A DNA stretch of 64,000 bases from Actinomycetospora corticicola (lineage in GTDB: Bacteria; Actinomycetota; Actinomycetes; Mycobacteriales; Pseudonocardiaceae): the NCBI RefSeq assembly GCF_013409505.1, contig NZ_JACCBN010000001.1, positions 124,001 to 188,000 on the forward strand, in the 5' to 3' direction. Each line of letters opens with the position of its first letter. The first letter of the stretch is position 1. Position numbers and translations under genes: made by a program. The notes under the pieces are model-generated. The model was given only the letters and a program-made list of their open reading frames with translations, was not told the origin of the DNA and searched no databases. Below are positions 33,233 to 57,016 of this stretch, in pieces.

Positions 33233-34000
33233 GTGCAGCTGTTCGACCTGACCGGCAAGGTCGCCGTGGTCACCGGCGGGACCCGCGGCATCGGGCTCAT
33301 GATCGCCCGCGGCCTGCTCGACGCCGGGGCGCGCGTGTACATCAGCTCGCGCAAGGAGGCCGCCGGCGAGGACGCGGTGCGGGAGCTCTCGCCCCACGGC
33401 GACGTCGTGTCGATCCCGGCGGACGTCTCGACCGAGGGGCAGTGCAAGCACCTCGCCGCCCTCGTGCGGGAGCGGGAGTCGGCCGTGCACGTGCTCGTCA
33501 ACAATGCGGGCGCGACGTGGGGAGCGCCGTTGGAGGAGTACCCGGCCGAGGCGTGGGACAAGGTCCTCGACCTGAACCTCAAGGCGCCGTTCTTCCTGAC
33601 CCGCGCCTTCGTGGACCTGCTCGAGGCCTCGGGGTCGGCGGAGGAGACGGCGTCGGTGATCAACATCGGCAGCATCGACGGCCTACGCGTGACGCCGTTG
33701 CCGACCTACGCGTACTCGGCGTCGAAGGCGGGCGTGCACCAGCTGACGCGTGTCCTGGCCGCCGAGCTCGGGCCGCGGAACGTGCGGGTCAACGCGATCG
33801 CGCCGGGCCCGTTCGAGTCGAAGATGATGGCGGCGACCCTCGCCGAGCGCGGCGACGAGATCGCGGCCGCCTCGGTGCTGGGGCGCATCGGCGCGCCGGA
33901 CGACATGGCAGGCGTGGCGGTGTTCCTCGCCTCGCGTGCCTCGGCGTACGTGACGGGAGCCGTGCTCCCGGTCGACGGGGGGATCTGGGCCGCGAGGTGA
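33233..34000 (+). CDS. SDR-family oxidoreductase (RhlG/FabG-like)
   Basis: A 255-residue short-chain dehydrogenase: cofactor motif VVTGGTRGIG, NNAGATWG, and catalytic YSASK in TYAYSASKAGVHQL; SSRKEAAGEDAV after beta-2 suggests NADP preference and resembles RhlG-type 3-oxoacyl reductases. Start GTG with GGAGGAG upstream. Its TGA begins the left flank of a palindromic repeat unit. Likely a cytosolic carbonyl reductase with unknown substrate. Confidence 0.87.
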   Translation: MQLFDLTGKVAVVTGGTRGIGLMIARGLLDAGARVYISSRKEAAGEDAVRELSPHGDVVSIPADVSTEGQCKHLAALVRERESAVHVLVNNAGATWGAPLEEYPAEAWDKVLDLNLKAPFFLTRAFVDLLEASGSAEETASVINIGSIDGLRVTPLPTYAYSASKAGVHQLTRVLAAELGPRNVRVNAIAPGPFESKMMAATLAERGDEIAAASVLGRIGAPDDMAGVAVFLASRASAYVTGAVLPVDGGIWAAR

Positions 34001-34072: not shown

Positions 34073-34534
34073 GTGAGCGATCAACGCCTCGAAGCGTCCC
34101 GCGTCGTCGACGCCCGCCCCGACCAGGTGTTCGCCTTGCTGGCGACCCCCGACCGGCACCCCGAGCTCGATGCCTCCGGCACCGTGCGCGGGTCCCGGAC
34201 CCACCAGCCGTTGACGGGCGTCGGCGACGTCTTCGAGATGGAGATGCACGGCCGCGACATGGGCGACTACGTCGTCGACAACCACGTCGTGACCTTCGAG
34301 CCCGACACAGAGATCGCCTGGGCACCCGCGACACACGGCGGCGACCGGGGCGGCCAGGTGTGGGGCTACCGGCTGGAGTCGGTCGACGGCGGCGGGAGCA
34401 CGCGGCTCACGCACGTCTACGACTGGTCGGGCGTGACGCTCGAGCGCCTGCTGCCCTACCTGCCGGTGGTCGACGCGGACGGCTTGGCGGCGACGCTGGA
34501 CCGGGTCGCGATGTGCTTCGCAGGTGAGCACTGA
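34073..34534 (+). CDS. SRPBCC-family protein
   Basis: A 153-residue START/polyketide-cyclase-like protein: EASRVVDARPDQVFALLATP at the N-terminus, WGYRLESVDGGGSTRLTHVYDW in the later strands, and a long C-terminal helix. These proteins form a hydrophobic pocket for lipids or aromatic molecules. Its last residues (AGEH) and stop are encoded by the arm of the palindromic unit at 34524. GTG start. Confidence 0.8.
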   Translation: MSDQRLEASRVVDARPDQVFALLATPDRHPELDASGTVRGSRTHQPLTGVGDVFEMEMHGRDMGDYVVDNHVVTFEPDTEIAWAPATHGGDRGGQVWGYRLESVDGGGSTRLTHVYDWSGVTLERLLPYLPVVDADGLAATLDRVAMCFAGEH

Positions 34535-34578: not shown

Positions 34579-35376
34579 TTACCAGGCGACGGCGCCGCCG
34601 TCCACCAGCAGGTTCGCGCCCGTGACGTAGGAGGCCGCCCCGCTGAGCAGGAACACGACCGGGCCGACGAGCTCCTCGGTCTCGGCCATCCGCCCGAGCG
34701 GGATGTCCTTGGTGTACGCCTGCACGTGCGGCCACACGTCCGGGTGCTTCGCCATCGGCGTCGCGGTGTAGCCGGGGCTGACCGCGTTCACGCGCACCCC
34801 GCGGTCCGCCCACTCCAGCGCCAAGGACGTCGTCAGGTGCAGCACGCCGGCCTTCGCGGCGTTGTAGTGCACCTGCGACAGGCCGCGGTTGGCGATCGTG
34901 GCCGAGATCGACCCGATGTTGACGATGCTGCCGCCGCCGTGGGCGAGCATGGCAGCGCCCTCGGCCTGGCAGCACGTGAACACGCCGGTGAGGTTGACGT
35001 CGAGCAGGCGCTGCCACTGCGCCCGGGGCATCGACTCGGCCGGGGCGTTGTCGTGCACCCCCGCGCAGTTCACCGCGTGCCGCAGCGGGCCCAGCTCGTC
35101 CTGCGCCCGCCGGACGGCCGCGGCCATCGCGTCCGCGTCGGCGACGTCGGCCTCGATCGCCACCGCACGGCGTCCGACCCCCTCGATCGCGGTGACCGTC
35201 TCCTTCAGCCCGTCGACGGAGACGTCCACGCAGGTCACGTCCGCGCCGAACTCCGCGAGGCCGAGCGCCACCCGGGCACCGATCCCGCCGGCCGCCCCCG
35301 TCACGAGGGCGACCGGGGCGCCGTCGACGTCGAGGCGGAACGACGGGGCCGGCCCCGCGGCGAAGGAGGCGGTCAC
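34579..35376 (-). CDS. SDR-family oxidoreductase of the catabolic island
   Basis: A 265-residue short-chain dehydrogenase: ALVTGAAGGIGARVALGLAE, acidic CVDVSVDG after beta-2 (NAD preference), NCAGVH, and catalytic YNAAKAG in SQVHYNAAKAGVLHL. It starts on a GTG overlapping the stop of the luciferase-like gene (GTGA), so the two are coupled. In context it would oxidise a secondary alcohol to a ketone ahead of the Baeyer-Villiger enzyme. Part of the GTCAAC-N6-GTTGAC regulon through the upstream gene. Confidence 0.88.
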   Translation of the reverse strand: MTASFAAGPAPSFRLDVDGAPVALVTGAAGGIGARVALGLAEFGADVTCVDVSVDGLKETVTAIEGVGRRAVAIEADVADADAMAAAVRRAQDELGPLRHAVNCAGVHDNAPAESMPRAQWQRLLDVNLTGVFTCCQAEGAAMLAHGGGSIVNIGSISATIANRGLSQVHYNAAKAGVLHLTTSLALEWADRGVRVNAVSPGYTATPMAKHPDVWPHVQAYTKDIPLGRMAETEELVGPVVFLLSGAASYVTGANLLVDGGAVAW

Positions 35377-36560
35377 GCCTGCGACACCTGACGCGACTCC
35401 CGCTCGGCCTGGTGCTTCGCGGTGAAGGCGTTGATCGCGTCCCACTGCTTCGCGGCCAGCGGGTCGCGCACGCTGCGGGTCCACGCCTCGTTCGCGAGCA
35501 GGCGCCGGTCGGTCTTCTTGAACTTCGGGATCACGTGGTTGGCGAACAGGTGGTAGTGGTGCAGGGTCGCCTCCCATGGCGCCCAGTTGTGGGCGAACAT
35601 CAGGTAGGCGCCGAAGCAGCCCTTGGACTGCTCCTCGAGACGCTCGATCTGGTTGACCGCGTCGTCAACGGTGCCGATGACGCCCATGCCCGACTCGATG
35701 ACGAACTCGATGCGCTCCTTGGTGGTCTCACCCTGCACGCCGAGCTGCGGCGCGGCCGCGGTGTGCTGGAGGTAGTCGAACCACTCGTTGATGCCGTACT
35801 CGACGTCCTTGATCGCCTGGTCCTTCGTGTCGGCGATGTGCATCGGGCCGACGAGGCGCCAGCCCTCACGGCTGGGCTCGGTTCCGTGCTCGGTCGCCAT
35901 CTCCTGGACGACGTCCCAGTGCATGGCCAGGGCGTCGAAGCCGGCGGCGCTCATGGTCGCGCCGATCGAGATCATCCCGAGGCCGTGCTTGCCCACGAGA
36001 CGGGGACCCGACGGCGAGACGATCGCAGCGGTGGCGATCTCCGGGTGCGGCCACGAGTAGGCGTCCATCTGCAGGCGCGCGTCGACCAGCTTGTAGCGGC
36101 CGGTGTCGATCGAGATCGGCTCGTCGCTGGTCAGCAGGTGCATGAGGACGTCGACGTCCTGCTCCAGGGCGGCCCGGGCGTCCGCAGGGTCGAGGCCGAA
36201 CATGCCGGCGTCGGTGGCCAGGGCGCCGGGTCCGACGCCGAGGATCGTGCGGCCCCGGGTGAGGTGGTCGAGCAGGATCAGACGATCCGCGATGTGGAAC
36301 GGGTTGTGGTACGGCAGCGACATCACGCCGGTCCCGAGCTTGATGTGCTTGGTCACCTGGGCGACGTGGGCGATGAAGAGCATCGGGTCGCCGATGAGTT
36401 CGACGCCGCAGGAGTGGTGCTCGCCGAACCACGCCTCGTCGAAGCCCATCTCGTCGAGGCGCTGCACGAGCTCGACGTCGCGCTGCAGCGAGTAGGTCGG
36501 GTTCTGCCCGACGGGGACGTGGTGCGGCGGCAGGAAGATGCCGAAACGCATGCGGGACAC
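35373..36560 (-). CDS. luciferase-like (LLM-class) flavin-dependent monooxygenase
   Basis: A 395-residue TIM-barrel flavoprotein: MRFGIFLPPHHVPVGQNPTY at the start, GFDEAWFGEHHS, LGTGVMSLPYHNPFHIADRL, and GRTILGVGPGALATDAGMFG. These are the usual bacterial-luciferase-family blocks for FMNH2-dependent oxygenation. The GTG at 36560 (VSRMRFGIF) is chosen because AAGGAG lies 5 bp upstream; the ATG at 36551 would leave 14 bp. The operator at 36624 lies about 64 bp upstream. A separate flavin reductase is not evident in the window. Confidence 0.87.
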   Translation of the reverse strand: MSRMRFGIFLPPHHVPVGQNPTYSLQRDVELVQRLDEMGFDEAWFGEHHSCGVELIGDPMLFIAHVAQVTKHIKLGTGVMSLPYHNPFHIADRLILLDHLTRGRTILGVGPGALATDAGMFGLDPADARAALEQDVDVLMHLLTSDEPISIDTGRYKLVDARLQMDAYSWPHPEIATAAIVSPSGPRLVGKHGLGMISIGATMSAAGFDALAMHWDVVQEMATEHGTEPSREGWRLVGPMHIADTKDQAIKDVEYGINEWFDYLQHTAAAPQLGVQGETTKERIEFVIESGMGVIGTVDDAVNQIERLEEQSKGCFGAYLMFAHNWAPWEATLHHYHLFANHVIPKFKKTDRRLLANEAWTRSVRDPLAAKQWDAINAFTAKHQAERESRQVSQA

Positions 36561-36623
36561 GAGGACTCCTTCGTCGGCCGGGGCTTCGCCGATGATCGAA
36601 ACTGTGGCTCCGATCACCCTGTA

Positions 36624-36641
36624 GTCAACGTAAACGTTGAC
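36624..36641 (-). promoter_or_regulatory. regulon operator 1: GTCAAC-gtaaac-GTTGAC
   Basis: Perfect 6-bp arms with a 6-bp spacer, in fact GTCAACGT-aa-ACGTTGAC. On the minus strand the right arm supplies a TTGACT -35 (36628-36623) for the monooxygenase-SDR operon; the matching -10 is weak (ACAGTT). The MFS gene on the plus strand starts 127 bp away and may share it. Confidence 0.7.
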
Positions 36642-36767
36642 GCTCGTCGCGACAAGGGTCGGTGTCCGGTCCACCGGCGTCGTCGGGCAGGTCCGGCAGG
36701 CATCCGCGGCGACCGGCTCCGCCGCGCGCGAGGTCGGGGCGGCCTCCTGTCGGGGCACCATGGAGGC

Positions 36768-37973
36768 GTGGCGAGTGCAGTGACGGCCTACCGGGAGGTG
36801 CTGGCGCAGCCCGGGCTCCGGGCGCTCTACGCAGTCGGGTTCGCCGCCCGGCTCCCGCTGACCGCGACCGGGGTCGTGCTGACCCTGCACGTCGCGGTCG
36901 GGCTCGACCGCGGGTTCGCGGCGGCTGGTCTGGTCGGGGGCGCGGTCACGTTCGGGACGGTGCTCGGAGCGCCCCTGCTGGGACGGCTGATCGACCGGGT
37001 CGGCCTGCGCCCGGTCCTGCTCCTCTGCGGGCTCTCCGAGGCGGTCTTCTGGGGGCTCGCGCCTCTTCTCGACGTCGGGCCCCTCGCCGCCACGGCCTTC
37101 CTCGCGGGGGTGCTCGCCCTGCCCGCCTTCCCCGTCGTCCGCCAGTCGCTCGGCGCCGTGGCGCCCGAGGGGAGGCGGCGACCGGCCTTCGCGCTCGACG
37201 CGATGTCGGCGGAGGTCTCGTTCATCGTGGGTCCGGCGGTCGGCACCGGAGCCGTCCTCGCCCTGCCGACGCCGGTGGCGCTGTGGCTGGTGGGTGCGGG
37301 CTTCGTCCTCGCGACGGCCGCGCTCTGGTGGCTGGACCCCCCGACCCGCGCGGAGCAGGAGCGGACGGACGCGCCCTCGATGCGCCACTGGCTCGGCGCG
37401 CCGATGGTCACGGCCCTGGCGGGCGCGGTCGCCGCGGTCCTGCTGCTGTCGGCCACCGAGCTGAGCGTCGTCGCGGCGCTCACCGCGCGGGGCGAGACCG
37501 GATGGTTCGCGCTCGCGAACACGGTGTGGTGCCTCGCGTCGCTGGTCGGCGGGTTCGTCTACGGCGTCGCCACCCGGCCACCGGCACTGCCGACGCTGCT
37601 CGCGGCCCTGGCCGTGGGCACGATCCCGGTCGCGTTCGGCGGACCGTGGTGGCTCGTGACCGTGCTGATCGTCGCGGCGGGAGCGTTCTGCGCGCCGGCG
37701 CTGTCCTCATCGGCGGAGGCAGTGGGACGGCTCGCACCGGACGCCGCGCGCGGGGTCGCGACCGGCTTGCACGGCTCGGCGATCATGCTCGGCGCCGCGC
37801 TCGCCCAACCGCTCACCGGCGTGCTGATCGACCGGGTGTCCCCGACGGCGGCGCTGCTCGCCGCCGTCGGGATCTGCCTGGCGGTCGCCGCGGGCGCCGG
37901 AGCCGTGCTGCGGGCCGGCGGTCAGCCGGCCGGCACCGCCTCGCGGCTGCCGACGAACACGAAGCCCTCGTAG
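36768..37973 (+). CDS. MFS transporter, 12-helix
   Basis: A 401-residue hydrophobic protein with about 12 helices; LLGRLIDRVGLRPVLLLCGL after helix 2 is the MFS loop and GALRAGG-like basic residues follow the last helix. It looks like a small-molecule exporter or importer of the CynX/YcaD size class. A GGAGG at 36762-36766 is 1 bp from the GTG at 36768 and 13 bp from a second in-frame GTG at 36780, so the start is uncertain. Its 3' end overlaps the convergent Baeyer-Villiger monooxygenase gene by 52 bp. Confidence 0.8.
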   Translation: MASAVTAYREVLAQPGLRALYAVGFAARLPLTATGVVLTLHVAVGLDRGFAAAGLVGGAVTFGTVLGAPLLGRLIDRVGLRPVLLLCGLSEAVFWGLAPLLDVGPLAATAFLAGVLALPAFPVVRQSLGAVAPEGRRRPAFALDAMSAEVSFIVGPAVGTGAVLALPTPVALWLVGAGFVLATAALWWLDPPTRAEQERTDAPSMRHWLGAPMVTALAGAVAAVLLLSATELSVVAALTARGETGWFALANTVWCLASLVGGFVYGVATRPPALPTLLAALAVGTIPVAFGGPWWLVTVLIVAAGAFCAPALSSSAEAVGRLAPDAARGVATGLHGSAIMLGAALAQPLTGVLIDRVSPTAALLAAVGICLAVAAGAGAVLRAGGQPAGTASRLPTNTKPS

Positions 37974-39544
37974 TCGTTGCCCGCGACCTGGTCGAGCGTG
38001 CGCCGGTACCCGCGCACCCCACCGACGTAGGGCATGAACACGCGTGGTTTCCCGGGGACCTCGGCACCCATGTAGTACGAGGCCGCCTTCGGGTACAGCG
38101 TGGCGGCCGCCCGCTCGTTGACGTGGTCGACCCAGTCGACCTCGGCCTGCGCGGACGCCTCGATCTCGTCCGCACCCTGCGCGGCCGCGTGGTCGAGCAG
38201 CCCGGCGATCCAGTCGACGTGCGCCTCGATCGACAGCAGCACGTTGGAGAGCAGGGACGGGCTGCCCGGGCCGGCGATGACGAAGAGGTTGGGGAAGCCC
38301 GAGACCCCGACGCCGAGGTAGGTGCGGGGTCCGGAGTTCCAGTGCTCGCGCAGCGTCCGGCCGCCGCGCCCGACGATCTCCGGCTTGAGCAGGGCACCCG
38401 TCATGGCGTCGAAGCCGGTGGCGAAGACAATCGTGTCCAGCTCGATCTCCTCCGCCGTCGTCCGGATGCCCTTCTCGGTGATCCGCTCGAGCGGGGTGTC
38501 GCGCATGTCGACGAGGTCGACGTTGTCCCGGTTGAAGGCCTCGAAGTAGCCGGAGTCGACCGGCGGCCGCTTCGCGCCGAAGGGGTAGCCGCGGGGCATG
38601 AGCCGCTCGGCCGTCGCCGGGTCGTCGACCTTCTCGGCGATCTTCGCGCGGATGAAGTCGGCGGCGGTGTCGTTGGCGCGCTCGTCGAGCATGAGGTCGT
38701 AGAAGGCGAGCAGGAAGCCGAAGCCCGCCGTCTTCCACTGCTCCTCGTACAGCGCGCGCCGCTCGTCCTCCGGCACCTCCACCGCGGACTGCTTGTTGGG
38801 TGCGAACCCCAGCCCGGACGGTGATCGGCGCGCCCGTTCACGCCGCTCGGAGTAGGTGGCCTTGACCTCGGCGTCGCGCTCGTCCGAGAGCGGCGCGTTG
38901 TTGGCGGGGATGGAGAAGTTCGGGGTGCGCTGGAAGACCGTGAGGTGGTCGACCTCCCGGGCGAGCACCGGGATGAGCTGCGTGCCGGACGACCCGGTGC
39001 CGATGACGCCGACGCGCTGCCCCGACAGGTCGACCGGCTCGTGCGGCCAGGCCCCGGTGTGCAGGATCCGGCCGCGGAAGTCGTCCTGGCCCTCGAGCTG
39101 TGGCTGCTTGGTCACCGACAGCTGGCCGGTCGCCATGACGAGGTACCGCGCGCTCCACGTGCCGGCCGTGTCGCCCTCGGTGGTGACGGTCCAGTGGTGC
39201 GCGTCCTCGTCGTACTCGGCGCGGGTCATCCGGGTGGAGAGGTGCACGTCGCGGCGCAGCCCGAACCGCTCCGCGACGTGGTCGACGTAGCGCAGGATCT
39301 CGGGCTGCGTCGCGTAGCGCTCGCTCCAGCGCCACTCCTGCTCGAGCTCCGGGGAGAACGAGAGCGAGTAGTCGTAGCTCTCGACGTCGCACCGCGCGCC
39401 CGGGTACCGGTTGACGTACCAGACACCTCCGAGACCGTCGTTGGCCTCGACGACCGCGACCTCGAGGCCACGCTCGCGGAAGGTGTGCAGGGTGCGGAGC
39501 CCGGCGAAACCGGCCCCCACCACGAGCATGTCGACCTGGCGCAT
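37922..39544 (-). CDS. Baeyer-Villiger monooxygenase (FAD, NADPH)
   Basis: A 540-residue type I BVMO. Rossmann motif GAGFAG (10-15), the BVMO fingerprint FRGRILHTGAWP (156-167; F-x-G-x3-H-x3-W-P), and a second nucleotide motif VIGTGSSGTQ. Length and motifs match cyclohexanone/cycloalkanone monooxygenases. It would insert oxygen next to a ketone to give an ester or lactone. The ATG at 39544 (MRQVDMLVVGAG) is chosen: a TTGACG-N17-TAACCT promoter ends 7 bp upstream, giving a leaderless mRNA. It is controlled by the shared operator. Confidence 0.93.
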   Translation of the reverse strand: MRQVDMLVVGAGFAGLRTLHTFRERGLEVAVVEANDGLGGVWYVNRYPGARCDVESYDYSLSFSPELEQEWRWSERYATQPEILRYVDHVAERFGLRRDVHLSTRMTRAEYDEDAHHWTVTTEGDTAGTWSARYLVMATGQLSVTKQPQLEGQDDFRGRILHTGAWPHEPVDLSGQRVGVIGTGSSGTQLIPVLAREVDHLTVFQRTPNFSIPANNAPLSDERDAEVKATYSERRERARRSPSGLGFAPNKQSAVEVPEDERRALYEEQWKTAGFGFLLAFYDLMLDERANDTAADFIRAKIAEKVDDPATAERLMPRGYPFGAKRPPVDSGYFEAFNRDNVDLVDMRDTPLERITEKGIRTTAEEIELDTIVFATGFDAMTGALLKPEIVGRGGRTLREHWNSGPRTYLGVGVSGFPNLFVIAGPGSPSLLSNVLLSIEAHVDWIAGLLDHAAAQGADEIEASAQAEVDWVDHVNERAAATLYPKAASYYMGAEVPGKPRVFMPYVGGVRGYRRTLDQVAGNDYEGFVFVGSREAVPAG

Positions 39545-39551
39545 GGACCCG

Positions 39552-39593
39552 AGGTTAGGTCGGCGCCCGAGGATCGTCAACGACCGTGTTGAC
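39552..39593 (-). promoter_or_regulatory. BVMO promoter with regulon operator 2
   Basis: Minus strand: -35 TTGACG (39580-39575), 17-bp spacer, -10 TAACCT (39557-39552), then 7 bp to the ATG. The operator GTCAAC-gaccgt-GTTGAC covers 39576-39593 and overlaps the -35, so a bound dimer would exclude polymerase. Confidence 0.75.
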
Positions 39594-39655
39594 GGTCGTC
39601 CCGACGACGGGTCGCCTGGCACGTGGGACGGCCCGCAGGGCTCCGCGGTGAGGGC

Positions 39656-40423
39656 TCAGTGCCCCGACCACCGGGGCGCGCGCTTCTCGCCGAACGCGCG
39701 CGCCCCCTCACGGGCGTCCTCGGTGGCCTTGATGGCGACCAGTTCGGTCTCCTGGCGCTCCCACGCCTCGTCGACGGGGAGGTCGGACGCGGCGAGCATC
39801 CGCTTCGTCGCCGCCAGGGCGAGCGGGGCGTTCCGGGCGATGCGGGCCGCCAGCTCCACCGCGGCGGTCACGGCCGCACCGGGCGCCACCAGCCGGTTGA
39901 CCAGCCCCCACCGGTGGGCGTCGGCCGCGCCGAAGCGGTCGCCGGTCAGGGCGAGTTCCGCGGCCACCGAGCGGGGGATCCGGTGCGGCAGCCGCAACAA
40001 CCCGCCCGAACCCGCGATCAGGCCGATACCCACCTCCGGCAGGCCGAACGACGCGTCGTCGGCCGCCACCACGAGGTCGCACGCCAGCACCAGCTCGCAC
40101 CCGCCGGCCAGGGCGAACCCCTCGACCGCGGCGATCAACGGTTTCGCGGGCGGCGCCTGGGTGAGTCCGCCGAACCCGCGCCCGGGCACCTCGGGAGCGT
40201 CACCGTCGAGGAAGGCGCGCAGGTCCATCCCGCTGCAGAAGGTGCCTCCGGCCCCGGTGAGCACTCCGACCGACGAGGACGGGTCGGCGTCGAACCCGTC
40301 GAGCACCCGGGCGATCTCCCGGCTCATCGCCCCGTCGATCGCGTTCCGCCGCTCCGGGCGGTCCAGGGTGATCAGCAGGACCCCGTCGGACGGCCGCTCC
40401 GTGCGCACACCGGTGCTCTCCAC
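39656..40423 (-). CDS. enoyl-CoA hydratase/isomerase of the catabolic island
   Basis: A 255-residue crotonase: LLITLDRPERRNAID, first oxyanion loop TFCSGMDLRAF, second AVEGFALAGGCELVLACDLV, catalytic region FGLPEVGIGLIAGSGG, and tail FGEKRAPRWSGH. This is a complete hydratase signature, including the Glu of GGCEL and the Glu in LPEVGIG. The GTG at 40423 follows a TTGACT-N17-CAGGCT promoter by 6 bp, again leaderless, with the operator at 40454 over its -35. It would hydrate the enoyl-CoA made by the acyl-CoA dehydrogenase of the cluster. Confidence 0.9.
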   Translation of the reverse strand: MESTGVRTERPSDGVLLITLDRPERRNAIDGAMSREIARVLDGFDADPSSSVGVLTGAGGTFCSGMDLRAFLDGDAPEVPGRGFGGLTQAPPAKPLIAAVEGFALAGGCELVLACDLVVAADDASFGLPEVGIGLIAGSGGLLRLPHRIPRSVAAELALTGDRFGAADAHRWGLVNRLVAPGAAVTAAVELAARIARNAPLALAATKRMLAASDLPVDEAWERQETELVAIKATEDAREGARAFGEKRAPRWSGH

Positions 40424-40453
40424 CCGTGCAGCCTGGACATCATCCCGAGGCTA

Positions 40454-40471
40454 GTCAACACTACGGTTGAC
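40454..40471. promoter_or_regulatory. regulon operator 3: GTCAAC-actacg-GTTGAC
   Basis: Perfect 6-bp arms, 6-bp spacer, between the divergent enoyl-CoA hydratase (start 40423) and NTF2-like (start 40487) genes. On the minus strand TTGACT is used as the -35 with CAGGCT 17 bp further. For the plus strand it lies 16 bp before the GTG and would cover the start of transcription. Confidence 0.75.
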
Positions 40472-40486
40472 GACAGGGAGGTCATC

Positions 40487-41260
40487 GTGGACATCCACCC
40501 GATGGGTGCGCTGATGCGGCGCTTCGTCGTGGACTGGCTCGACCGGGCCGACCCCGAGGTCCCGCCGCAGATCATGGCGCCCGGCTACGCGATCGACATC
40601 GCGGGGGTGCAGATGCCCGGGCGGGACGCCTACCTGGAGGCGACCAGCGGCCAGCTCGCGCGCTTCCCGGGCCTGACGGTCACCGTCCACGACGCGATGT
40701 ACACCCCCGACGGCCTGGCCGCGCTGCGCTTCACCGAGCACGGTGCTTCGGTGCGTGGCGGATCGGCGGCCTGGCGGGGCATCGGGCTCTTCCGGACCGA
40801 GGACGGCGTCCTGGTGCACAACGCGACCGAGGAGGACTACCTCGGCCGGCGCCGCCAGCTCCTCGCCGGCACCCCCGACCCGGTCGACCCGCCGATGGTC
40901 GCACCCTGGACCGAGCCGCCGGCCGCGCCCGACGCCGACGCCGAGCAGGTCGTCCGTCGCTGGCTCGACGCCGGCGCCCCGGTCCGGCCGGGGATCACCT
41001 ACGACGACGGGATGACGCGGTCCGACCTCCTCGAGGCGCCGACGGTCGAGGTCGACACCGTCGTCGTCGCCGGACGACGGGTCGCCGTGCACGGCCTCGC
41101 GCGCGGCGCCTACGCCGGCGGGCTGCCCGAGCGTCCCGATCCCGACGGCACCGAGGTGACCCTCGGTCTCGCCGCCCTCCTCGACGTCGCCGTCGACGGG
41201 ACGCTGACCGGTCACGTGGTCCGCGACCGCCTCGGCGTCCACCGGGCCCTCACCCGATGA
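40487..41260 (+). CDS. NTF2-like (SnoaL-type) protein, two-domain length
   Basis: A 257-residue protein whose first 125 residues (MRRFVVDWLDRADPEVPPQI ... GRDAYLEATSGQLARFPGL ... LFRTEDGVLVHNATEEDYLG) fit a SnoaL/NTF2 cone fold. The second half (about 150-257) is of similar size with a beta-rich C-terminus and may be a degenerate second copy. NTF2-like proteins include epoxide hydrolases, ketosteroid isomerases and cyclases. GTG at 40487 with GGGAGG upstream; overlaps the hydrolase start by 4 bp. First gene of the three-gene operon NTF2 - hydrolase - dehydrogenase. Confidence 0.75.
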   Translation: MDIHPMGALMRRFVVDWLDRADPEVPPQIMAPGYAIDIAGVQMPGRDAYLEATSGQLARFPGLTVTVHDAMYTPDGLAALRFTEHGASVRGGSAAWRGIGLFRTEDGVLVHNATEEDYLGRRRQLLAGTPDPVDPPMVAPWTEPPAAPDADAEQVVRRWLDAGAPVRPGITYDDGMTRSDLLEAPTVEVDTVVVAGRRVAVHGLARGAYAGGLPERPDPDGTEVTLGLAALLDVAVDGTLTGHVVRDRLGVHRALTR

Positions 41261-42276
41261 CCGCTCCGGGACGTGCCGCCGACGAAGGTGCTCGGAGCGT
41301 CAATGACTTCCCTGACGCATCCCCTGCGACGGATCGGCCATCGACGACCGGAGAGGCACGGCTCGCCCCCGAGGCCGCCGACCTGCTGCGCCGCCTCACC
41401 GAGCTCGGACTGCGGCCGTACGCCGAGGTCGGGGTGCTCGCCGCCCGGCACGCCGTCGAGGCCGCGCGATGGATGCAGGGAGAGAAGGTGGACGGGGTCG
41501 CGGTCACCGATCTCCTCGTCGACGGCGGGGACGGCCGCGTCCCGGCCCGGGTGTACCGCCCCACGGCTGCATCGAGCACGGAGGTCCCGCTCGTCGTCTG
41601 GTTCCACGGCGGCGGCTGGGTCTGCGGCAGCGTCGCGTCCGTCGACCGTCCGTGCCGGGCCATCGCGCGCGCCGCGGGCGCCGTCGTGGTCTCCGTCGAG
41701 TACCGACGCCCACCCGAGACGCCCTTCCCGGGACCGCTCGAGGACGCCGTCGCCGCGACCGCCTGGTGCGCCGACCACGCCGCAGAGCTCGGTGCGCACC
41801 CCGGCCGGGTCGTGATCGGCGGGGACAGCGCCGGTGGCAACCTCGCGGCGGCGGCCGCCCGGTGGCTGCGCGACCGGGTCGCGCGCCAGGTGCTCGTCTA
41901 CCCGGTGCTCGTGCCGCCCGACGCGGCCGGCTACCCGGCGCACAACGACGGGTACCTGCTCACCCACGCCGACATGGTGTGGTTCTGGGAGCACCACCTC
42001 GACGGGCGCCCCGTAACACCGGACGCCGCCCCACTGCTCGCGTCCGACGACGAGCTCCGCGGCCTCCCGTCCGTCGCGATCGCCGTCGCCGGCTTCGACC
42101 CGTTGCACGACGAGGGCGTCACCTACGCGGAGCGGCTGCGCGCGGCCGGTGTCGACGTCGAGCTGCGCGACTGGCCGGACATGATCCACGGCTTCCTCGG
42201 CATGGCCGGGGAGCTGCCGCAGAGCGCCGGCCTCATCACCTGGATCGCCGAACGGATCGGGAGGACCACGACATGA
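41257..42276 (+). CDS. alpha/beta hydrolase, hormone-sensitive-lipase family
   Basis: A 339-residue esterase: oxyanion motif HGGGWVCG, nucleophile GDSAGGN, acid AGFDPLHDEG and histidine DMIHGFLG, in the order typical of the HSL family. It hydrolyses short acyl esters or lactones. Placed with a Baeyer-Villiger enzyme, it is the natural candidate to open the ester or lactone product. The ATGA overlaps on both sides show translational coupling. Confidence 0.92.
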   Translation: MTAPGRAADEGARSVNDFPDASPATDRPSTTGEARLAPEAADLLRRLTELGLRPYAEVGVLAARHAVEAARWMQGEKVDGVAVTDLLVDGGDGRVPARVYRPTAASSTEVPLVVWFHGGGWVCGSVASVDRPCRAIARAAGAVVVSVEYRRPPETPFPGPLEDAVAATAWCADHAAELGAHPGRVVIGGDSAGGNLAAAAARWLRDRVARQVLVYPVLVPPDAAGYPAHNDGYLLTHADMVWFWEHHLDGRPVTPDAAPLLASDDELRGLPSVAIAVAGFDPLHDEGVTYAERLRAAGVDVELRDWPDMIHGFLGMAGELPQSAGLITWIAERIGRTTT

Positions 42277-43112
42277 GCGTTGCCGTCATCGGGGGCGGGA
42301 CGATGGGCCGCGGGATCGCCTACGTGTTCGCCGCCGCCGGCCTGTCCACCACGGTCGTGGAGCCGGACCGGGCCCGGGCGGACGCCCTGGTCGACGAGCT
42401 CGCGCAGCGGGCGCGCACCGGCGCGGAGCGCGGCAAGCTCGACCCGACGGCCGCGGAGCGCCTGCCCGGGCTGCTCGACGTGGTCGATGGCGTGGACGAG
42501 CTCGCGACCGGCCTCGACCTCGTCGTCGAGTCCGTGCCGGAGGTCCCGGAGCTCAAGGCCGAGGTCCTGACGACGGCGGAGGCCCGCGCGCCGCGGCTGC
42601 TCGCCTCCAACACGAGCTCGATCTCGATCGACGCGCTGGCCGCGAACCTGGCCCGCCCCCAGGCCTTCCTGGGCATGCACTTCTTCAACCCGGTCTGGTC
42701 GCTGCCGCTGGTCGAGGTGGTGCGCGGCCGGGCCAGCGACGAGCAGGCGATCACCTCCGCCCAGGACTACGCCACGACGATCGGCAAGGAGTCGATCGTC
42801 GTCCGGGACGTCCCGGGCTTCGCCACCAGCCGCCTCGACAACATCGCCGCCTTCGAGGCGATGCGGATGGTGGAGGAGGAGGTGGCGACGGCGGAGGACA
42901 TCGACAAGGCGGCCGTCCTCGCCTACGGCCACCCGATCGGCCCGCTCCGCCTGTCCGACGTCGTCGGGCTCGACGTGCGCCTCGACATCGCACGCCACCT
43001 GTCGGGCGTCTACGGCGAGCGCTACGCCGCCCCGGCGATCCTCGAGCGGCTCGTGGCCCAGGGCCACCTCGGCCGCAAGTCGGGGCAGGGGTTCTACCGC
43101 TGGGAGCGTTGA
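42273..43112 (+). CDS. 3-hydroxyacyl-CoA dehydrogenase
   Basis: A 279-residue NAD-dependent dehydrogenase: VAVIGGGTMGRGIAYVFAAAG, LVVESVPEVPELK, SNTSSISIDALA, GMHFFNPVWSLPLVEVV carrying the catalytic His, and KSGQGFYRW at the C-terminus. This is the short, single-function form (as 3-hydroxybutyryl-CoA dehydrogenase). It overlaps the hydrolase by ATGA. Its last codons contain the -35 of the next promoter. Confidence 0.93.
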   Translation: MSVAVIGGGTMGRGIAYVFAAAGLSTTVVEPDRARADALVDELAQRARTGAERGKLDPTAAERLPGLLDVVDGVDELATGLDLVVESVPEVPELKAEVLTTAEARAPRLLASNTSSISIDALAANLARPQAFLGMHFFNPVWSLPLVEVVRGRASDEQAITSAQDYATTIGKESIVVRDVPGFATSRLDNIAAFEAMRMVEEEVATAEDIDKAAVLAYGHPIGPLRLSDVVGLDVRLDIARHLSGVYGERYAAPAILERLVAQGHLGRKSGQGFYRWER

Positions 43113-43153
43113 CGACCCGGAGCGCCCGACCTAGAGTCAACAGTGCTGTTGAA
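43109..43153 (+). promoter_or_regulatory. acyl-CoA dehydrogenase operon promoter with regulon operator 4
   Basis: TTGACG (43109-43114), a 17-bp spacer and TAGAGT (43132-43137). The operator GTCAAC-agtgct-GTTGAa covers 43136-43153, across the end of the -10 and the expected start (about 43144). The -35 overlaps the stop of the preceding gene. AGGAG and ATG follow at 43156 and 43166. Confidence 0.78.
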
Positions 43154-43165
43154 ACAGGAGGCGAC

Positions 43166-44356
43166 ATGGCCGACGGCATCGTGAAGGACGACCTGCTCCT
43201 CGACACCGACGAGCGCAAGGCGTTGCGCGAGAGCGTGGCGAAGCTCGTGGGGAGCTACGGACGGAGCTACTTCCAGGACGTCACGAAGCGCGGGGCGCGT
43301 CCGGACGAGCTGTGGAAGGACCTGGGCGACGCCGGCTACCTCGGCGTGCACCTGCCCGAGGAGTACGGCGGGGGCGGGGGCGGCCTGACCGACCTCTCCA
43401 TCGTCATCGAGGAGACCTCGGCCGCGGGCTGCCCGCTGTTCATGCTCGTGATCTCCCCGGCCATCGCCGGGTCGCTGCTCACCGCGCACGCCTCGGAGGC
43501 CCAGAAGCAGACGTGGCTCGCGGGCGTGGCCGACGGCACGAAGCGCATCGCCTTCGCCATCACCGAGCCCGACGCCGGGACGAACACCCACAACATCACG
43601 ACGACGGCGCACGCCGACGGTCCCGACGCCTGGCGCATCCGCGGCCAGAAGTACTGGACGTCGGGCATCGACGACGCCGACGCCGTCATCGTCGTGGCCC
43701 GCGGTGCGGAGCCCGACGCGCGGGGTCGCCACCCGATCTCGATGTTCCTGGTCCCCACCGACGCCGAGGGTCTGAGCTTCCAGCCCATCGACTCCGCGCT
43801 GCAGATCCCGGAGAACCAGTTCACCACGTTCTTCGACGACGTCCGGGTCACCCGGGACGACCTCATCGGCGAGGAGGGCGCGGGCCTGCGCCAGGTGTTC
43901 GCCGGGCTGAACCCCGAGCGGGTCACGGCCGCCGCGCAGGCCAACGGCATCGCCCGCTTCGCCCTCGCGAAGGCCGCCCGCTACGCCACCGACCGCGTCG
44001 TGTGGTCCACCCCGATCGGCGCCCACCAGGGCGTGTCGCACCCGCTGGCCAAGTGCTTCGTCGAGGTCCAGCTCGCCCGGCTGATGACGATGCACGCCGC
44101 GAAGCTGACCGACGAGGGGGCCGACCCGGCGGCGACCGGGAGCGCGTCCACCGTCGCGAAGTACGCGGCGGGGGAGGCCGCGGCCGCCGCGGTCGACCAG
44201 GCCATCCAGACCCACGGCGGGAACGGCCTGTCCAACGAGTACGGGCTCTCCGACCTGTGGTTCGCGGCGCGGATGTTCCGCACCGCGCCGGTGAGCCGCG
44301 AGATGGTGCTCAACCACGTCGCCCAGCACAACCTCGGCCTGCCCAAGAGCTACTGA
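43166..44356 (+). CDS. acyl-CoA dehydrogenase
   Basis: A 396-residue FAD flavoprotein: LHLPEEYGGGGGGLTDLSIV in the N-terminal domain, FAITEPDAGTNTHN (FAD/substrate loop), RIRGQKYWTSGIDDAD, and C-terminal TQGGNGLSNEYG-type motif (QTHGGNGLSNEY). The glutamate region is near the last helix pair. It forms trans-2-enoyl-CoA. The ATG at 43166 follows AGGAG; a TTG 57 bp upstream in frame lies inside the promoter and is rejected. The stop overlaps the next start (TGATG). Confidence 0.93.
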   Translation: MADGIVKDDLLLDTDERKALRESVAKLVGSYGRSYFQDVTKRGARPDELWKDLGDAGYLGVHLPEEYGGGGGGLTDLSIVIEETSAAGCPLFMLVISPAIAGSLLTAHASEAQKQTWLAGVADGTKRIAFAITEPDAGTNTHNITTTAHADGPDAWRIRGQKYWTSGIDDADAVIVVARGAEPDARGRHPISMFLVPTDAEGLSFQPIDSALQIPENQFTTFFDDVRVTRDDLIGEEGAGLRQVFAGLNPERVTAAAQANGIARFALAKAARYATDRVVWSTPIGAHQGVSHPLAKCFVEVQLARLMTMHAAKLTDEGADPAATGSASTVAKYAAGEAAAAAVDQAIQTHGGNGLSNEYGLSDLWFAARMFRTAPVSREMVLNHVAQHNLGLPKSY

Positions 44357-45873
44357 TGACGGCGACCGCGGCCACGACCCCCGTCATGGACGCCACCCTG
44401 GGCGACACGCTCACCCGGGTGGCGTCCCTCGGCGCCGACCGACCGGCGCTCACGCTGGACGACCGGACGGTGACCTTCGGCGAGTTCGACCGCCGCGCCC
44501 ACGAGGTCGCCCGGGCTCTCGTCCGGGAGGGCCTGCGGCCGGGTGACCGGGTGGCGGTCCTGCTCCGGAACTGTCCGGAGTACTTCCAGCTGCTGTTCGG
44601 GGCGGCCCGGGCGGGGGTCGTGCTGGTCGCGCTCAACTGGCGCCTGGCGGGGCCGGAGGTCCGCGCCATCCTCGACGACGCCGAGCCGGCGCTGCTGGTG
44701 TGCGGTCGCGACCAGCTCGGGCTCGTGCCGGCCGACCGTCGACCGCTGGTCCTCGAGGACGACTACGAGGGCTGGCTGGCGGAGGTCCCCGCCGACCCGG
44801 TTGAGCACGAGCCGGAGCCCGACGACGTCGTCCTGCAGCTGTACAGCTCCGGCACGACGGGGCTGCCCAAGGGCGCCCGTCTCACCCACGCCAACCTCGC
44901 GTTCACCCCGCGGATGGGCCGCGAGTTCTACGGGATGGGCCCGGACTCGGTGAACCTGGTGCCCTCGCCGCTGTTCCACATCGGCGGCATCGGGTACGGG
45001 CTCACCACGCTCGGGCAGGGCGGCCACACGGTCCTGCTCTCCGACCTGAGCCCCGACCACCTCGTCGCGGTCATGGAACGCCACCGGGTCACGCACGCGT
45101 TCGCCGTGCCGGCGATCGTCGCGGCCATCCTGGCCTCACCCGCCGTCGGGACGGCGGATCTCTCCGCGCTCGAGCGCATCGCCTACGGCGGGGCGCCGAT
45201 GACCGAGGCGCTGCTGCGCCGCGCCATCGAGGTGCTGGGCTGTGGTTTCATGGCCGTCTACGGGATGACCGAGACCGCGGGCACCGTCGTCAGCATGGCC
45301 CCCGAGGAGCACGAGCCGCACCGGCTGCGCTCGGTCGGACGACCGCTCCCGTGGCTGGAGATCACGCTGGTGGACCCGGTCTCCGAGGAGGAGGTCGGGG
45401 TCGGCGAGGTCGGCGAGATCCGGGTGCGGTCCGGGCAGAACACCCCGGGCTACTGGCACCGGCCCGAGGAGTCGGCGGCGACGCTCGTCGAGGGTGGCTG
45501 GCTGCGCACCGGGGACGCCGGCTACCGCGACGCCCAGGGCTACCTCTACCTGCACGACCGCATCAAGGACCTCATCATCTCCGGCGGGGAGAACGTGTAC
45601 CCGGCGGAGGTCGAGAACGCGCTGGCCGCGCACCCCGGCATCGCCGACGTCGCGGTCATCGGGGTGCCGTCGGAGCGCTGGGGCGAGACGGTGAAGGCGA
45701 TCGTCGTGCCGGCACCCGGGGCCACGCTCGACGTCGACGAGCTCCTCGCCGACGTGCGCACGCGGTTGGCCCGCTACAAGTGCCCGACGTCGATCGACGT
45801 AGTGGAGGCTCTGCCACGCAACGCGGCTGGCAAGGTACTCAAGCGCGAGCTCCGCGCCCCGTTCTGGCGCTGA
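44356..45873 (+). CDS. acyl-CoA synthetase (AMP-forming)
   Basis: A 505-residue ligase: LYSSGTTGLPKGARLTHANL P-loop, AVYGMTETAG, LRTGDAGYRDAQGYLYLHDR hinge, IISGGENVYPAEVEN, and catalytic lysine in PRNAAGKVLKREL. It activates the carboxylic acid released by the hydrolase for beta-oxidation. It is coupled to the dehydrogenase and followed after 23 bp by the TetR gene. Confidence 0.92.
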   Translation: MTATAATTPVMDATLGDTLTRVASLGADRPALTLDDRTVTFGEFDRRAHEVARALVREGLRPGDRVAVLLRNCPEYFQLLFGAARAGVVLVALNWRLAGPEVRAILDDAEPALLVCGRDQLGLVPADRRPLVLEDDYEGWLAEVPADPVEHEPEPDDVVLQLYSSGTTGLPKGARLTHANLAFTPRMGREFYGMGPDSVNLVPSPLFHIGGIGYGLTTLGQGGHTVLLSDLSPDHLVAVMERHRVTHAFAVPAIVAAILASPAVGTADLSALERIAYGGAPMTEALLRRAIEVLGCGFMAVYGMTETAGTVVSMAPEEHEPHRLRSVGRPLPWLEITLVDPVSEEEVGVGEVGEIRVRSGQNTPGYWHRPEESAATLVEGGWLRTGDAGYRDAQGYLYLHDRIKDLIISGGENVYPAEVENALAAHPGIADVAVIGVPSERWGETVKAIVVPAPGATLDVDELLADVRTRLARYKCPTSIDVVEALPRNAAGKVLKRELRAPFWR

Positions 45874-45896
45874 GCAGGAGCGGGGGAGGAGGCGGG

Positions 45897-46559
45897 ATGG
45901 CGGCACGTGACGAGCCGAGTGCCATCTCCCGACGTCGGGCCGCGGCGCTCGACGAGGGAGGTGCGGCCTACCGGGAGCGCCGCGCCGCGATCGTGCGGGC
46001 GGCCGGCGACGTCTTCAAGCGGCACGGGTTCCGCGGCACGAAGATCGGCGACATCGCCGAGGCCGTGGGCATGGACCGCGCGACGATCTACTACTACGTC
46101 GGCGGCAAGGAGGAGCTCTTCCACACCGCCGTCGGCGACGCGGTGGAGCGCAACTGTCTCCGCGCGGAGGAGATCCTCGCCGCGGACGGGACGCCCCCGG
46201 AGAAGCTGCGGACGCTGATCACCGAGCTGATGGTGTCCTACGCCGACAACTACCCCTACCTGTACCTCTACATCCAGGAGGACCTCAGCGCGCTCGCGCC
46301 GCGGTCGCAGTGGGGCCGCACGATGGCCCGCTACAACAAGCGCTACGAGAACGTCCTGGTCGCGATCGTGGAGGACGGGCTGGCCGACGGCAGCTTCCAC
46401 GCGACGACGAGGCCGTGGGTGGTCGCCTACGGCATCCTCGGGATGGTCGCGTGGTCGAACCGGTGGTTCGACCCGGAGACCTCGACCGTCCCCGCCGCCG
46501 AGATCGGCGCCGCCTACGCCGACACCGTGCTCGGCGGTCTCCTCCGCGAACCGCTCTGA
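45897..46559 (+). CDS. TetR-family regulator, likely repressor of the island
   Basis: A 220-residue regulator: helix-turn-helix AAGDVFKRHGFRGTKIGDIA then EAVGMDRATIYYYVGGKEEL, and a helical C-terminal domain with aromatic residues (YADNYPYLYLYIQED) lining a presumed ligand pocket, as in FadR/KstR-like proteins with a TetR_C_33-like fold. GGAGGAGGCGGG precedes the ATG. It is the last gene of the dehydrogenase-ligase operon, so it is itself under operator 4. The shared palindrome in four island promoters is its most likely target; the ligand is probably an acyl-CoA intermediate. Confidence 0.88.
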   Translation: MAARDEPSAISRRRAAALDEGGAAYRERRAAIVRAAGDVFKRHGFRGTKIGDIAEAVGMDRATIYYYVGGKEELFHTAVGDAVERNCLRAEEILAADGTPPEKLRTLITELMVSYADNYPYLYLYIQEDLSALAPRSQWGRTMARYNKRYENVLVAIVEDGLADGSFHATTRPWVVAYGILGMVAWSNRWFDPETSTVPAAEIGAAYADTVLGGLLREPL

Positions 46560-46562
46560 GCG

Positions 46563-47918
46563 TCAGACCTTGTCCGCCGCGAGGTCGGTGTCGCGGGTCT
46601 CGCGGAAGAAGAACACGCAGACGAGCAGGCTGATCAGCGCGGCGACGCTCGCGTAGGCGGCGACCGAGAGCACGGTGCCGGTCGCCGCCACGAGCGCGGT
46701 CCCGACCAGCGGCGCGGTGCCGCCGAACAGGCCGTACGAGACGTTGAACCCGATGCCGCTCGCGGTGGCGCGGACCCTCGTCGGGAAGAGCTCCGGGATC
46801 AGCACGGTCACCACCGCCGAGTTCAGCGACACCGGGATCATGAACAGCAGCTGCGCGGTCAACGCGCTCGCGAACGTCCCGTCGTCGGCGATCGTGTACG
46901 CGACGGCGGGGAGCACGACGTAGATCGCGGCCGCCGTCAGGTGCACCGGTTTGCGCCCGACCCGGTCGACCAGCAGTCCGGTGAACGGCAGCGTCACGAG
47001 CAGGACGCCCATCGCGATCACGCTCGTGGCGAAGGCGGCGTCCGAGTCGAGCCCGACGTCGTTGATGAGGTGCTGCGGCAGGTAGGTGATGACGCTGTAG
47101 GAGGAGACCGACCCGCCGACCGTCATGCCGATGTAGAGCAGGATCGCCCGCCACTGGGTGCGCAGCGTGGTCCGCAGCGGACTGGCCTCGACCGCGCCCT
47201 GCTCCCGCTTGAACCGCTCGAACTCCGGGCTCTCCTCGACGGCGAGCCGTAGCACCAGACCCAGCGCGCACAGCGGGATCGCGATGAGGAACGGCAGCCG
47301 CCAGCCCCACGTCGCCAGCTGCTCGTCGGTCAGGGTCGCGGTGAGGACCGTCGCCGTCGCCGCCCCCGACATCAGCCCGAGGTAGACCCCGAGCGACGCG
47401 AAGCTCGCGAAGAAGCCCCGACGGTGCGGCGGCGCGTGCTCGACCATGAAGCCCACGGCGCCGGAGTACTCCCCGCCCGCCGCGAGCCCCTGCAGCATGC
47501 GCAGGACCAGCAGCAGGATCGGGGCCGCGATCCCGGCGCTCGCGTAGGTCGGCAGGACGCCGATCAGGCCGGTGAACACACCGATCAGCAGGACGGTCAG
47601 CGAGAGCATCGCCCGCCGACCGAGACGGTCGCCGATCACGCCGAACAGCGCGCCCCCGACCGGCCGCATGATGAACGAGATCGCGTAGATCCCGTACGTC
47701 GCGAGCAGTCCTGCGACCGGGTTCTCGTCGGGGAAGAACAACGGCGCGAGGATCGGCGCGAGGTAGCCGTAGACGCCGAAGTCGTACTGCTCGACGAAGT
47801 TGCCGATCCCGCTCGCCAGCACCGCTCGCCGCGAGGGTCGGTTCCCGACGGCGGGTGTGGCCGGTTCGGTGCGCGTGCTCACGATCGCCAGGGTGAAGGA
47901 CGTGTGAGCCCGGCGCAC
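46563..47918 (-). CDS. MFS transporter, metabolite:H+ symporter (MHS) family
   Basis: A 451-residue, 12-helix protein: SGIGNFVEQYDFGVYGYLAP near the start, RPVGGALFGVIGDRLGRRAM (MHS loop 2-3), LRMLQGLAAGGEYSGAVGF, and LFPTRVRATASGIGFNVSYG. These mark importers of organic acids and osmolytes (ProP, KgtP, ShiA relatives). GTG 47918 has AGGA upstream; a GTG at 47882 is the alternative. It converges on the TetR gene with a 3-bp gap and diverges from an ArsR-like gene. A role in taking up the island's substrate is likely but not shown. Confidence 0.88.
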   Translation of the reverse strand: MRRAHTSFTLAIVSTRTEPATPAVGNRPSRRAVLASGIGNFVEQYDFGVYGYLAPILAPLFFPDENPVAGLLATYGIYAISFIMRPVGGALFGVIGDRLGRRAMLSLTVLLIGVFTGLIGVLPTYASAGIAAPILLLVLRMLQGLAAGGEYSGAVGFMVEHAPPHRRGFFASFASLGVYLGLMSGAATATVLTATLTDEQLATWGWRLPFLIAIPLCALGLVLRLAVEESPEFERFKREQGAVEASPLRTTLRTQWRAILLYIGMTVGGSVSSYSVITYLPQHLINDVGLDSDAAFATSVIAMGVLLVTLPFTGLLVDRVGRKPVHLTAAAIYVVLPAVAYTIADDGTFASALTAQLLFMIPVSLNSAVVTVLIPELFPTRVRATASGIGFNVSYGLFGGTAPLVGTALVAATGTVLSVAAYASVAALISLLVCVFFFRETRDTDLAADKV

Positions 47919-56714: not shown

Positions 56715-56747
56715 GCTCGATGTCTCCTGGAGGACAGGCGGGAACCG

Positions 56748-56767
56748 GGTCCGCGGAGGTGCGGACC
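56748..56767 (-). promoter_or_regulatory. hairpin in the OsmC leader
   Basis: GGTCCGC-n6-GCGGACC, a 7-bp stem between the leader peptide and the OsmC start. As in the other leader, a CCTCC anti-Shine-Dalgarno abuts the AGGAG of the gene. Confidence 0.4.
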
Positions 56768-56835
56768 GGGAGGTCAGGGCGCTCGTCGTCCGCGCAGCAC
56801 ACCGCGACCAGTTCGGCGCGGGTGAGCGGGATCGC

Positions 56836-56922
56836 TCAGACGAGCGGGCGGGCGGGGCGACAGCCCATCGCCGGCACACGGCACAGATCGACGTGCAGAC
56901 GACGCACGAGGTTCCGGGCCAT
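56836..56922 (-). CDS. cysteine leader peptide of the OsmC unit
   Basis: A 28-residue frame: [20 protein letters not shown] then CRPARPLV-stop. It matches the same pattern as the leader at 50024 (R-R-x-H-V-D-x-x-R-V then Cys), with cysteines at 14 and 21, and has the same length. The ATG is the expected first base of the transcript: TTGGCG-N17-TTCAAT ends 7 bp upstream. No Shine-Dalgarno is needed. Confidence 0.75.
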
Positions 56923-56928
56923 ACGATC

Positions 56929-56957
56929 ATTGAACACCGAATGGTCGTGGACGCCAA
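56929..56957 (-). promoter_or_regulatory. leaderless promoter of the second leader peptide
   Basis: Minus strand: -35 TTGGCG (56957-56952), 17-bp spacer, -10 TTCAAT (56934-56929), first base at about 56922 on the ATG. The 302-bp interval 56715-57016 thus holds this promoter, the leader, its hairpin, and the upstream region of the divergent nitrile hydratase operon. Confidence 0.6.
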
Positions 56958-57016
56958 CCCGGGAGGCTCGACGCGGAGCCCCCGGGCGCCCGACGCGGCC
57001 CGTGGAGAGGACCCGC

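Follow-up and report, generated by a model that had tools for sequence, protein, structure and literature searches.

Within a 64,000-nucleotide stretch of the Actinomycetospora corticicola genome (hereafter the window), a catabolic island carries four copies of an 18-bp palindrome, GTCAAC-N6-GTTGAC, each in a promoter region, together with a gene for a TetR/AcrR regulator at position 45897. From sequence comparison, we consider it likely that this TetR binds the palindrome at the four promoters and represses the island, and that it is probably released by an ester of coenzyme A (CoA). The proposal that a single operator defines a TetR regulon, made in an earlier sequence-only reading of the window, is strongly supported in silico by the rarity of the site in the genome, by the co-inheritance of TetR and site, and by a later set of loci. 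The gene families, the sites and their rarity, the co-inheritance and the overlap of sites with promoter boxes are direct observations; binding, repression, ligand, reaction order and substrate are parts of the explanation that we infer. TetR regulons of catabolic genes are a known kind, to which the island adds a widely spread member.

Predicted operator sites and the TetR genes that accompany them

Every operator precedes genes: the divergent pair for a luciferase-like (LLM) flavin monooxygenase and an MFS transporter, the gene for a Baeyer-Villiger monooxygenase (BVMO), the divergent pair for an enoyl-CoA hydratase/isomerase (ECH) and a SnoaL-like protein, and an operon for an acyl-CoA dehydrogenase (ACAD), an acyl-CoA ligase and the TetR. 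The four sites, given without strand, are:

36624..36641: operator 1, exact; between the LLM gene (minus strand) and the MFS gene (plus strand)
39576..39593: operator 2, exact; before the BVMO gene; one arm reads TTGACG, a -35-like box, with TAACCT 17 bp on
40454..40471: operator 3, exact; between the ECH gene (minus strand) and the SnoaL gene (plus strand)
43136..43153: operator 4, one mismatch (GTCAACAGTGCTGTTGAA); overlaps a -10-like TAGAGT with TTGACG 17 bp upstream; precedes the ACAD-ligase-TetR operon

The exact palindrome occurs three times in the whole genome (6,166,488 bases, single contig), always inside the island, and a control pattern consisting of the palindrome reversed does not occur at all. 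Allowing up to one mismatch gives 16 places (4 for the reversed control), made up of the three exact sites, operator 4, a copy at 35664 within the LLM gene and 11 copies beyond the window. Placement relative to open reading frames covered 10 of these 11 (6,110,088 was left out), and all ten, like the 35664 copy, sit inside long open reading frames, which at 73% GC is weak evidence. Looser copies, with up to three mismatches, are enriched in the window (52 versus a shuffle mean of 21.4), many of them of the GTCGAC type. The sequence-only reading had listed the same four sites and placed the TetR gene at the end of the operon behind operator 4; all four were found again and the ACAD-ligase-TetR order was seen, and the genome scan that it had called for bears out the confinement of the exact palindrome to the island.

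TetR and operator are inherited together in relatives. Among 100 related genomes, 18 of them of the same genus, a TetR with 83% identity or more is present in 5 of the 18, and exact palindromes (two or three each) are found in exactly those five; both are absent from the other 13, three of which are less than 85% complete. Genome G077, with TetRs of 54 and 51% identity, has three exact sites, and G054, with a TetR of 38%, has two. Seven relatives thus have a TetR at or above 38% identity; they contain 18 exact sites in total, none farther than about 13 kb from such a TetR. A lone site is no evidence, because 36 exact sites turn up in 30 of the other 93 genomes and the reversed control occurs 25 times across the 100. 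G066, whose TetR is the next best (34%), has a single exact site, distant from that TetR. The same genes, foremost those for the BVMO and the ACAD, are preceded by sites in Actinomycetospora and Pseudonocardia loci. As a separate observation, G036 has two exact palindromes 27 bp apart (contig C3, 76552-76596) and no close TetR relative in the genome, perhaps belonging to another regulator.

The repressor-operator pair also predicts beyond its source genome. A later set of 27 loci from 19 genomes, covering all 29 new TetR rows from profile searches of the order and the class, contains an exact site in 19 loci and a site within one mismatch in 23; the totals are 41 exact sites and 73 within one mismatch, where 20 permuted palindromes average 0.0 and 1.35. 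The order 3-hydroxyacyl-CoA dehydrogenase (HADH), site, ACAD, ligase, SnoaL is repeated in six of these loci (L215, L216, L217, L219, L221 and L222), and BVMOs of 61-71% identity are found in L215, L217, L220, L222 and L224.

A profile built from 16 TetRs matches, at E 1e-45, 17 of 297 genomes of the family with 22 TetR rows, of which 13 have an exact site in the stretch scanned, 8 fall in a subclade lacking the operator and one (G512) has only two one-mismatch sites. At the same threshold it matches 15 of 397 genomes of the order and 9 of 394 of the class, in overlapping samples. At E 1e-35 it matches 15 of 396 genomes of the phylum; among the eight scanned for sites, these were found in the window genome, G460 and G484, and none in the scanned stretches of G066, G455, G352, G341 and G257. 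In one set of 20 loci, nine have three or more sites within one mismatch, L147 has two and ten have none. For L023-L045, sites were sought within about 1.5 kb to either side of the TetR, and L024 has one one-mismatch site.

We built a tree of 48 TetR rows, calling a row operator-linked when it has at least two sites within one mismatch. A single clade of 32 rows (support 97/95) takes in 24 of the 25 operator-linked rows; its eight remaining rows make up one nested operator-less subclade (100/99), and L147 stands outside the clade. In the comparison of recognition helices, which had its own set of 25 operator-linked rows (two of them the same strain), all 25 share the helix-turn-helix motif DR[AVS][ST]xYYY, and the helix DRAAIYYY is found in the nine rows of the operator-less subclade. 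L080, whose TetR stretch has a stop codon, is left out of the counts. On these comparisons the predicted TetR-operator pair extends to Pseudonocardia, to other actinobacterial families and to plasmids of Rhodococcus, Sphingopyxis and Sphingobium.

Two groups of loci are recorded here in their own right. L137, L139 and L141-L144 form a sister subclade (DRAAIYYY), for the most part next to genes for a CoA ligase and an LLM protein, with no operator copy in 20 kb; a search of six loci for shared palindromes with 6-bp arms gave no convincing alternative operator for the operator-less subclade. In L147, one-mismatch sites at 3096 and 3142, 46 bp apart, lie near a more distant TetR with an SRAT helix and possibly represent a related operator.

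The predicted repressor, the island genes and candidate pathways

The 45897 protein belongs to the TetR/AcrR family: both PF00440 and PF17932 score above their cut-offs, its model is all-helical and matches solved TetR structures, and a palindromic operator of the kind associated with the family accompanies it, judging from sequence and comparison. The best solved match to the model is KstR2 (23% identity in the structural alignment), whose regulon serves cholesterol catabolism in Mycobacterium tuberculosis and relatives, and the top 50 fold matches include PfmR, DarR, FadR with stearoyl-CoA and AibR with isovaleryl-CoA. KstR2 is a TetR repressor of CoA-ester catabolism, and its operator differs from the island palindrome. 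A CoA-ester inducer made via the ligase is plausible and is the one we favour, because FadR and AibR, both CoA-bound, neighbour the KstR2-like fold of the modelled TetR. The protein falls outside KstR itself (NCBIfam score 20.4 bits versus a cut-off of 280); KstR2 is only a remote sequence and fold match, no KstR2 model appears among the NCBIfam matches, and the island differs from the KstR2 regulon in having BVMO, LLM and SnoaL genes. Palindromic operators are also described, in the available portions of the sources, for the TetR repressors BkaR and EdcR of acyl-CoA or estrogen catabolism; the BkaR operator, GTTA(N)T(N4)A(N)TAAC (PMC3920632), and the EdcR operator, TnnCnnTACnAnTnGTAnnGnnA, which overlaps a -10 box (PMC8700777), are both unlike that of the island.

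On the simplest reading, the TetR would cover core promoter boxes at the four operators and keep the island repressed and, since its gene ends the operon behind operator 4, would limit its own supply. An alcohol, or an alcohol derived from an alkene, would be converted to a ketone by the LLM monooxygenase and the SDR enzymes; the BVMO would insert oxygen into the ketone to give a lactone or ester, which the HSL-type hydrolase would open; the ligase would then make a CoA ester, to be degraded by the ACAD, the hydratase and the HADH. A CoA-ester intermediate would probably free the operators from the repressor.

Family searches recovered SDR, LLM, MFS, BVMO, ECH, SnoaL, hydrolase, HADH, ACAD, ligase, TetR and MHS proteins and so confirmed the gene families of the sequence-only reading; they are the basis of the assignments below unless another is given:

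33233..34000, plus strand: SDR_a, an SDR protein, outside the island as first delimited (34579 to 47918); no operator before it in the window
34073..34534, plus strand: SRPBCC / Polyketide_cyc2 protein
34579..35376, minus strand: SDR_b, an SDR protein; overlaps the end of the LLM gene on the same strand
35373..36551, minus strand: luciferase-like (LLM) flavin monooxygenase
36768..37973, plus strand: MFS transporter; start approximate
37922..39544, minus strand: type I BVMO; carries both BVMO fingerprints
39656..40423, minus strand: enoyl-CoA hydratase/isomerase (crotonase, ECH); searched with 39656-40414 as query
40502..41260, plus strand: SnoaL/NTF2-like protein; probable second domain of the same kind
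41257..42276, plus strand: HSL-type alpha/beta hydrolase; HGGG, GDSAG; Abhydrolase_3
42273..43112, plus strand: HADH
43166..44356, plus strand: ACAD
44356..45873, plus strand: acyl-CoA ligase
45897..46559, plus strand: TetR/AcrR regulator; TetR_N and TetR_C_24
46563..47918, minus strand: MHS-type MFS importer; no operator before it

Type I BVMOs are marked by FxGxxxHxxxW[PD], [AG]GxW....[FY]P[GM]...D and two GxGxxG motifs, and the island enzyme carries FRGRILHTGAWP and GGVWYVNRYPGARCD, with GAGFAG and GTGSSG for the two GxGxxG. HSL-type hydrolases carry HGGG and GxSxG, both present in the island hydrolase. The conserved set probably extends to SDR_a, since a homologue lies directly beside the TetR gene in G077 and on a Sphingopyxis plasmid, and one gene away from it in G460 and G484. 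The SRPBCC gene adjoins SDR_a also in G014 and G016, the two other Actinomycetospora genomes whose stretch shows both. At 646-663 of locus L087 (genome G014), a one-mismatch operator stands directly before the SDR_a homologue; the window has no such site.

The sequence-only reading had also held that this combination of enzymes matches no named pathway, a claim that comparison with Rhodococcus erythropolis DCL14 weakens. The limonene-1,2-epoxide route of that strain, as far as the available portions of the sources describe it, proceeds through a monooxygenase, an epoxide hydrolase, a dehydrogenase, a BVMO, ring cleavage, CoA activation and beta-oxidation (PMC7794910, PMC4097962), and the island enzyme classes run parallel to it in order. 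The likeness is one of enzyme classes, and a hallmark of the route, limonene epoxide hydrolase (LEH), was not found in the island, whose SnoaL protein lies outside the Pfam LEH family.

By analogy, the island may work like the limonene route, which we regard as possible and somewhat doubtful: the LLM protein would epoxidise a cyclic alkene, the SnoaL/NTF2 protein would open the epoxide, an SDR would yield a hydroxyketone and the BVMO a lactone. Besides the order of classes, epoxide hydrolases are among the SnoaL fold matches (a polyether epoxide hydrolase complex at rank 21, limonene epoxide hydrolase at rank 42). Against this, the best folds are polyketide cyclases, the SnoaL protein has no match to PF07858, the Pfam LEH family, even at E 10 (the sole LEH match in the genome is at 5.376 Mb, and PF07858 matches occur in 106 of 298 genomes of the order), and the BVMO is nearest to steroid and phenylacetone monooxygenases. 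The second domain of the SnoaL protein resembles SnoaL only in the model and in one weak match (E 0.013). In favour of the limonene reading, LimB is itself luciferase-like. None of 30 LEH loci has an island-gene homologue (E 1e-8) within about 1.5 kb on each side, a scan that shows no LimA-LimB-like neighbourhood and leaves the likeness of the LLM protein to LimB unsettled.

Of the BVMOs with solved structures, steroid monooxygenase (E 5.5e-194) and phenylacetone monooxygenase are nearest in sequence to the island enzyme. We therefore treat a cyclic or terpenoid substrate, suggested in the sequence-only reading, as one option among others. These two enzymes, together with KstR2, of steroid catabolism, as best match of the TetR model, point to a further tentative possibility, that the BVMO turns a side-chain or aryl ketone into an ester for the HSL hydrolase in the catabolism of a steroid, an acetyl-terpenoid or an aryl ketone; however, no steroid-ring enzymes were recognised among the window proteins scanned, and the LLM and SnoaL proteins would be left unexplained.

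Promoter overlap and other readings of the palindrome

The spacing of -10-like TANNNT motifs was scanned around the 76 arms of 38 exact sites, taken from 23 chosen loci and omitting L136, which is from the same strain as L082. TANNNT lies 16, 17 or 18 bp after a TTGAC arm in 3, 10 and 6 cases (19 of 76), compared with 0-2 cases at other spacings from 6 to 32; offsets 8 and 9, inside the site, scored 6 and 20, which we attributed to the letters of the site itself and did not use. When 92 sites within one mismatch are read on either strand, a TANNNT at offset -4 overlaps 12 of the ends, and in ten of these cases TTG stands 17-18 bp upstream. A promoter-like pair of either type is present at 16 of the 38 exact sites, and TANNNT at 16-18 bp follows 13 of the 562 other TTGACs in the loci, a control for the arm type alone. 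Of the four window operators, 2 and 4 conform to the strict promoter rule. This overlap of operator arms with -35-like and -10-like boxes fits repression.

Several results weigh against repression of the island by this TetR through the palindrome. Operators 1 and 3 fall outside the strict promoter rule, as do 22 of the 38 exact sites. The SDR_a and MHS genes have no operator of their own in the window, no thiolase was found among the 38 window proteins scanned (a set smaller than that of all open reading frames), and no flavin reductase was seen beside the LLM gene. DarR, a near fold neighbour present with cyclic nucleotides, means that the fold neighbourhood is not purely one of CoA ligands. 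The later loci were picked by the TetR profile alone, and several share a genome or belong to close relatives. Four of the 27 (L218, L228, L230 and L234) have no site within one mismatch, among them L218 (DRAT) and L234 (DRAS) despite helices that fit the motif, and L230 (ERAT) although a 69% BVMO is nearby. Sites are present despite off-motif helices in L236, L237 and L239 (ERAS), L220 (DRASLYHY) and L224 (DRASLYFY), and L220, with its 71% BVMO, has only a one-mismatch site. The absence of a site in L228 (DRAN) is as the motif predicts. The link between helix and operator, as read from these sequences, is only a tendency, because L218 and L234 break it in one direction and L236, L237, L239, L220 and L224 in the other.

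We judge it improbable that a different regulator, co-inherited with the islands, uses the sites while the TetR binds elsewhere. The binding of TetR to the site is a prediction, and further regulators do occur in site-bearing stretches (LysR on pSFD01, LacI on pR8L1, MerR and a second TetR on pSH1), but within loci the site goes with the TetR subclade and, for the most part, with its recognition helix, whereas the other genes vary widely; the loci having been picked by TetR, its presence there is no evidence by itself. That the palindrome is no repressor site and represents two back-to-back -35 boxes of divergent promoters, with TTGAC on each strand, is very improbable: the arms do look like -35 boxes in the spacing counts above, but operators 2 and 4 serve one-directional promoters, no exact copy exists in 13 of the 18 genus genomes and copies cluster beside one TetR clade, the 6-bp gap being fixed by the search pattern and no evidence on this point.

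Plasmid copies and wider reach

Plasmid pSFD01 of Sphingopyxis FD7, a strain whose origin is given in the available portion of its source as industrial cooling water, carries exact sites with TetRs of 45 and 43% identity, an LLM protein of 66%, a BVMO of 59%, and ECH, HADH and ACAD proteins of 60-62%. This plasmid (L092) is mobilizable and holds its two clade TetRs and most island-gene homologues beside ligK-type genes. Exact sites and the same TetR type are also found on plasmids of Rhodococcus ruber YC-YT1 (42%), Rhodococcus sp. 008 (44%) and Sphingobium xenophagum (32%), with gene sets largely different from that of the island. The YC-YT1 plasmid (L093) is conjugative, and its operator-TetR pair lies beside AtuA-type acyclic terpene genes, a thiolase and a 44% BVMO. 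Plasmid pRHL3 of R. jostii RHA1 was rejected as a further case: it has an LLM homologue of 54%, but the fetched stretch shows two-mismatch sites only and no clade TetR, and the edge of the stretch cuts through an annotated TetR gene.

As a text string, the operator has no match in the open-access papers searched, and matches to a broader query combining the two hexamers with TetR, one of which concerns Mce3R, were judged by title alone. Neither hexamer is printed in the available text of the EdcR and BkaR papers or of a mycobacterial TetR survey, whose logos are images. Literature on Actinomycetospora, TetR and BVMO, and on BVMO, TetR and terpenoid clusters, gave no evident match by title. We consider the evidence evenly balanced on a broader view, in which a TetR subfamily absent from the papers searched reaches from Actinomycetota to alphaproteobacterial plasmids and its one operator marks many undescribed oxygenase-plus-CoA islands, the present one serving a cyclic terpenoid or steroid-like compound without a known route. 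If the predicted binding holds, regulons could be outlined with this address, and bacteria not yet studied as well as catabolic plasmids could be searched with it for BVMO, LLM and CoA-ligase pathways; the TetR could also act as a sensor of the pathway intermediate.

Elsewhere in the window, 29144-31333 (minus strand) encodes an MFS transporter that carries, close to its C-terminus, a carboxypeptidase-regulatory-like domain, and 56720-57679 (plus strand) encodes a protein of the nitrile hydratase beta-subunit type.

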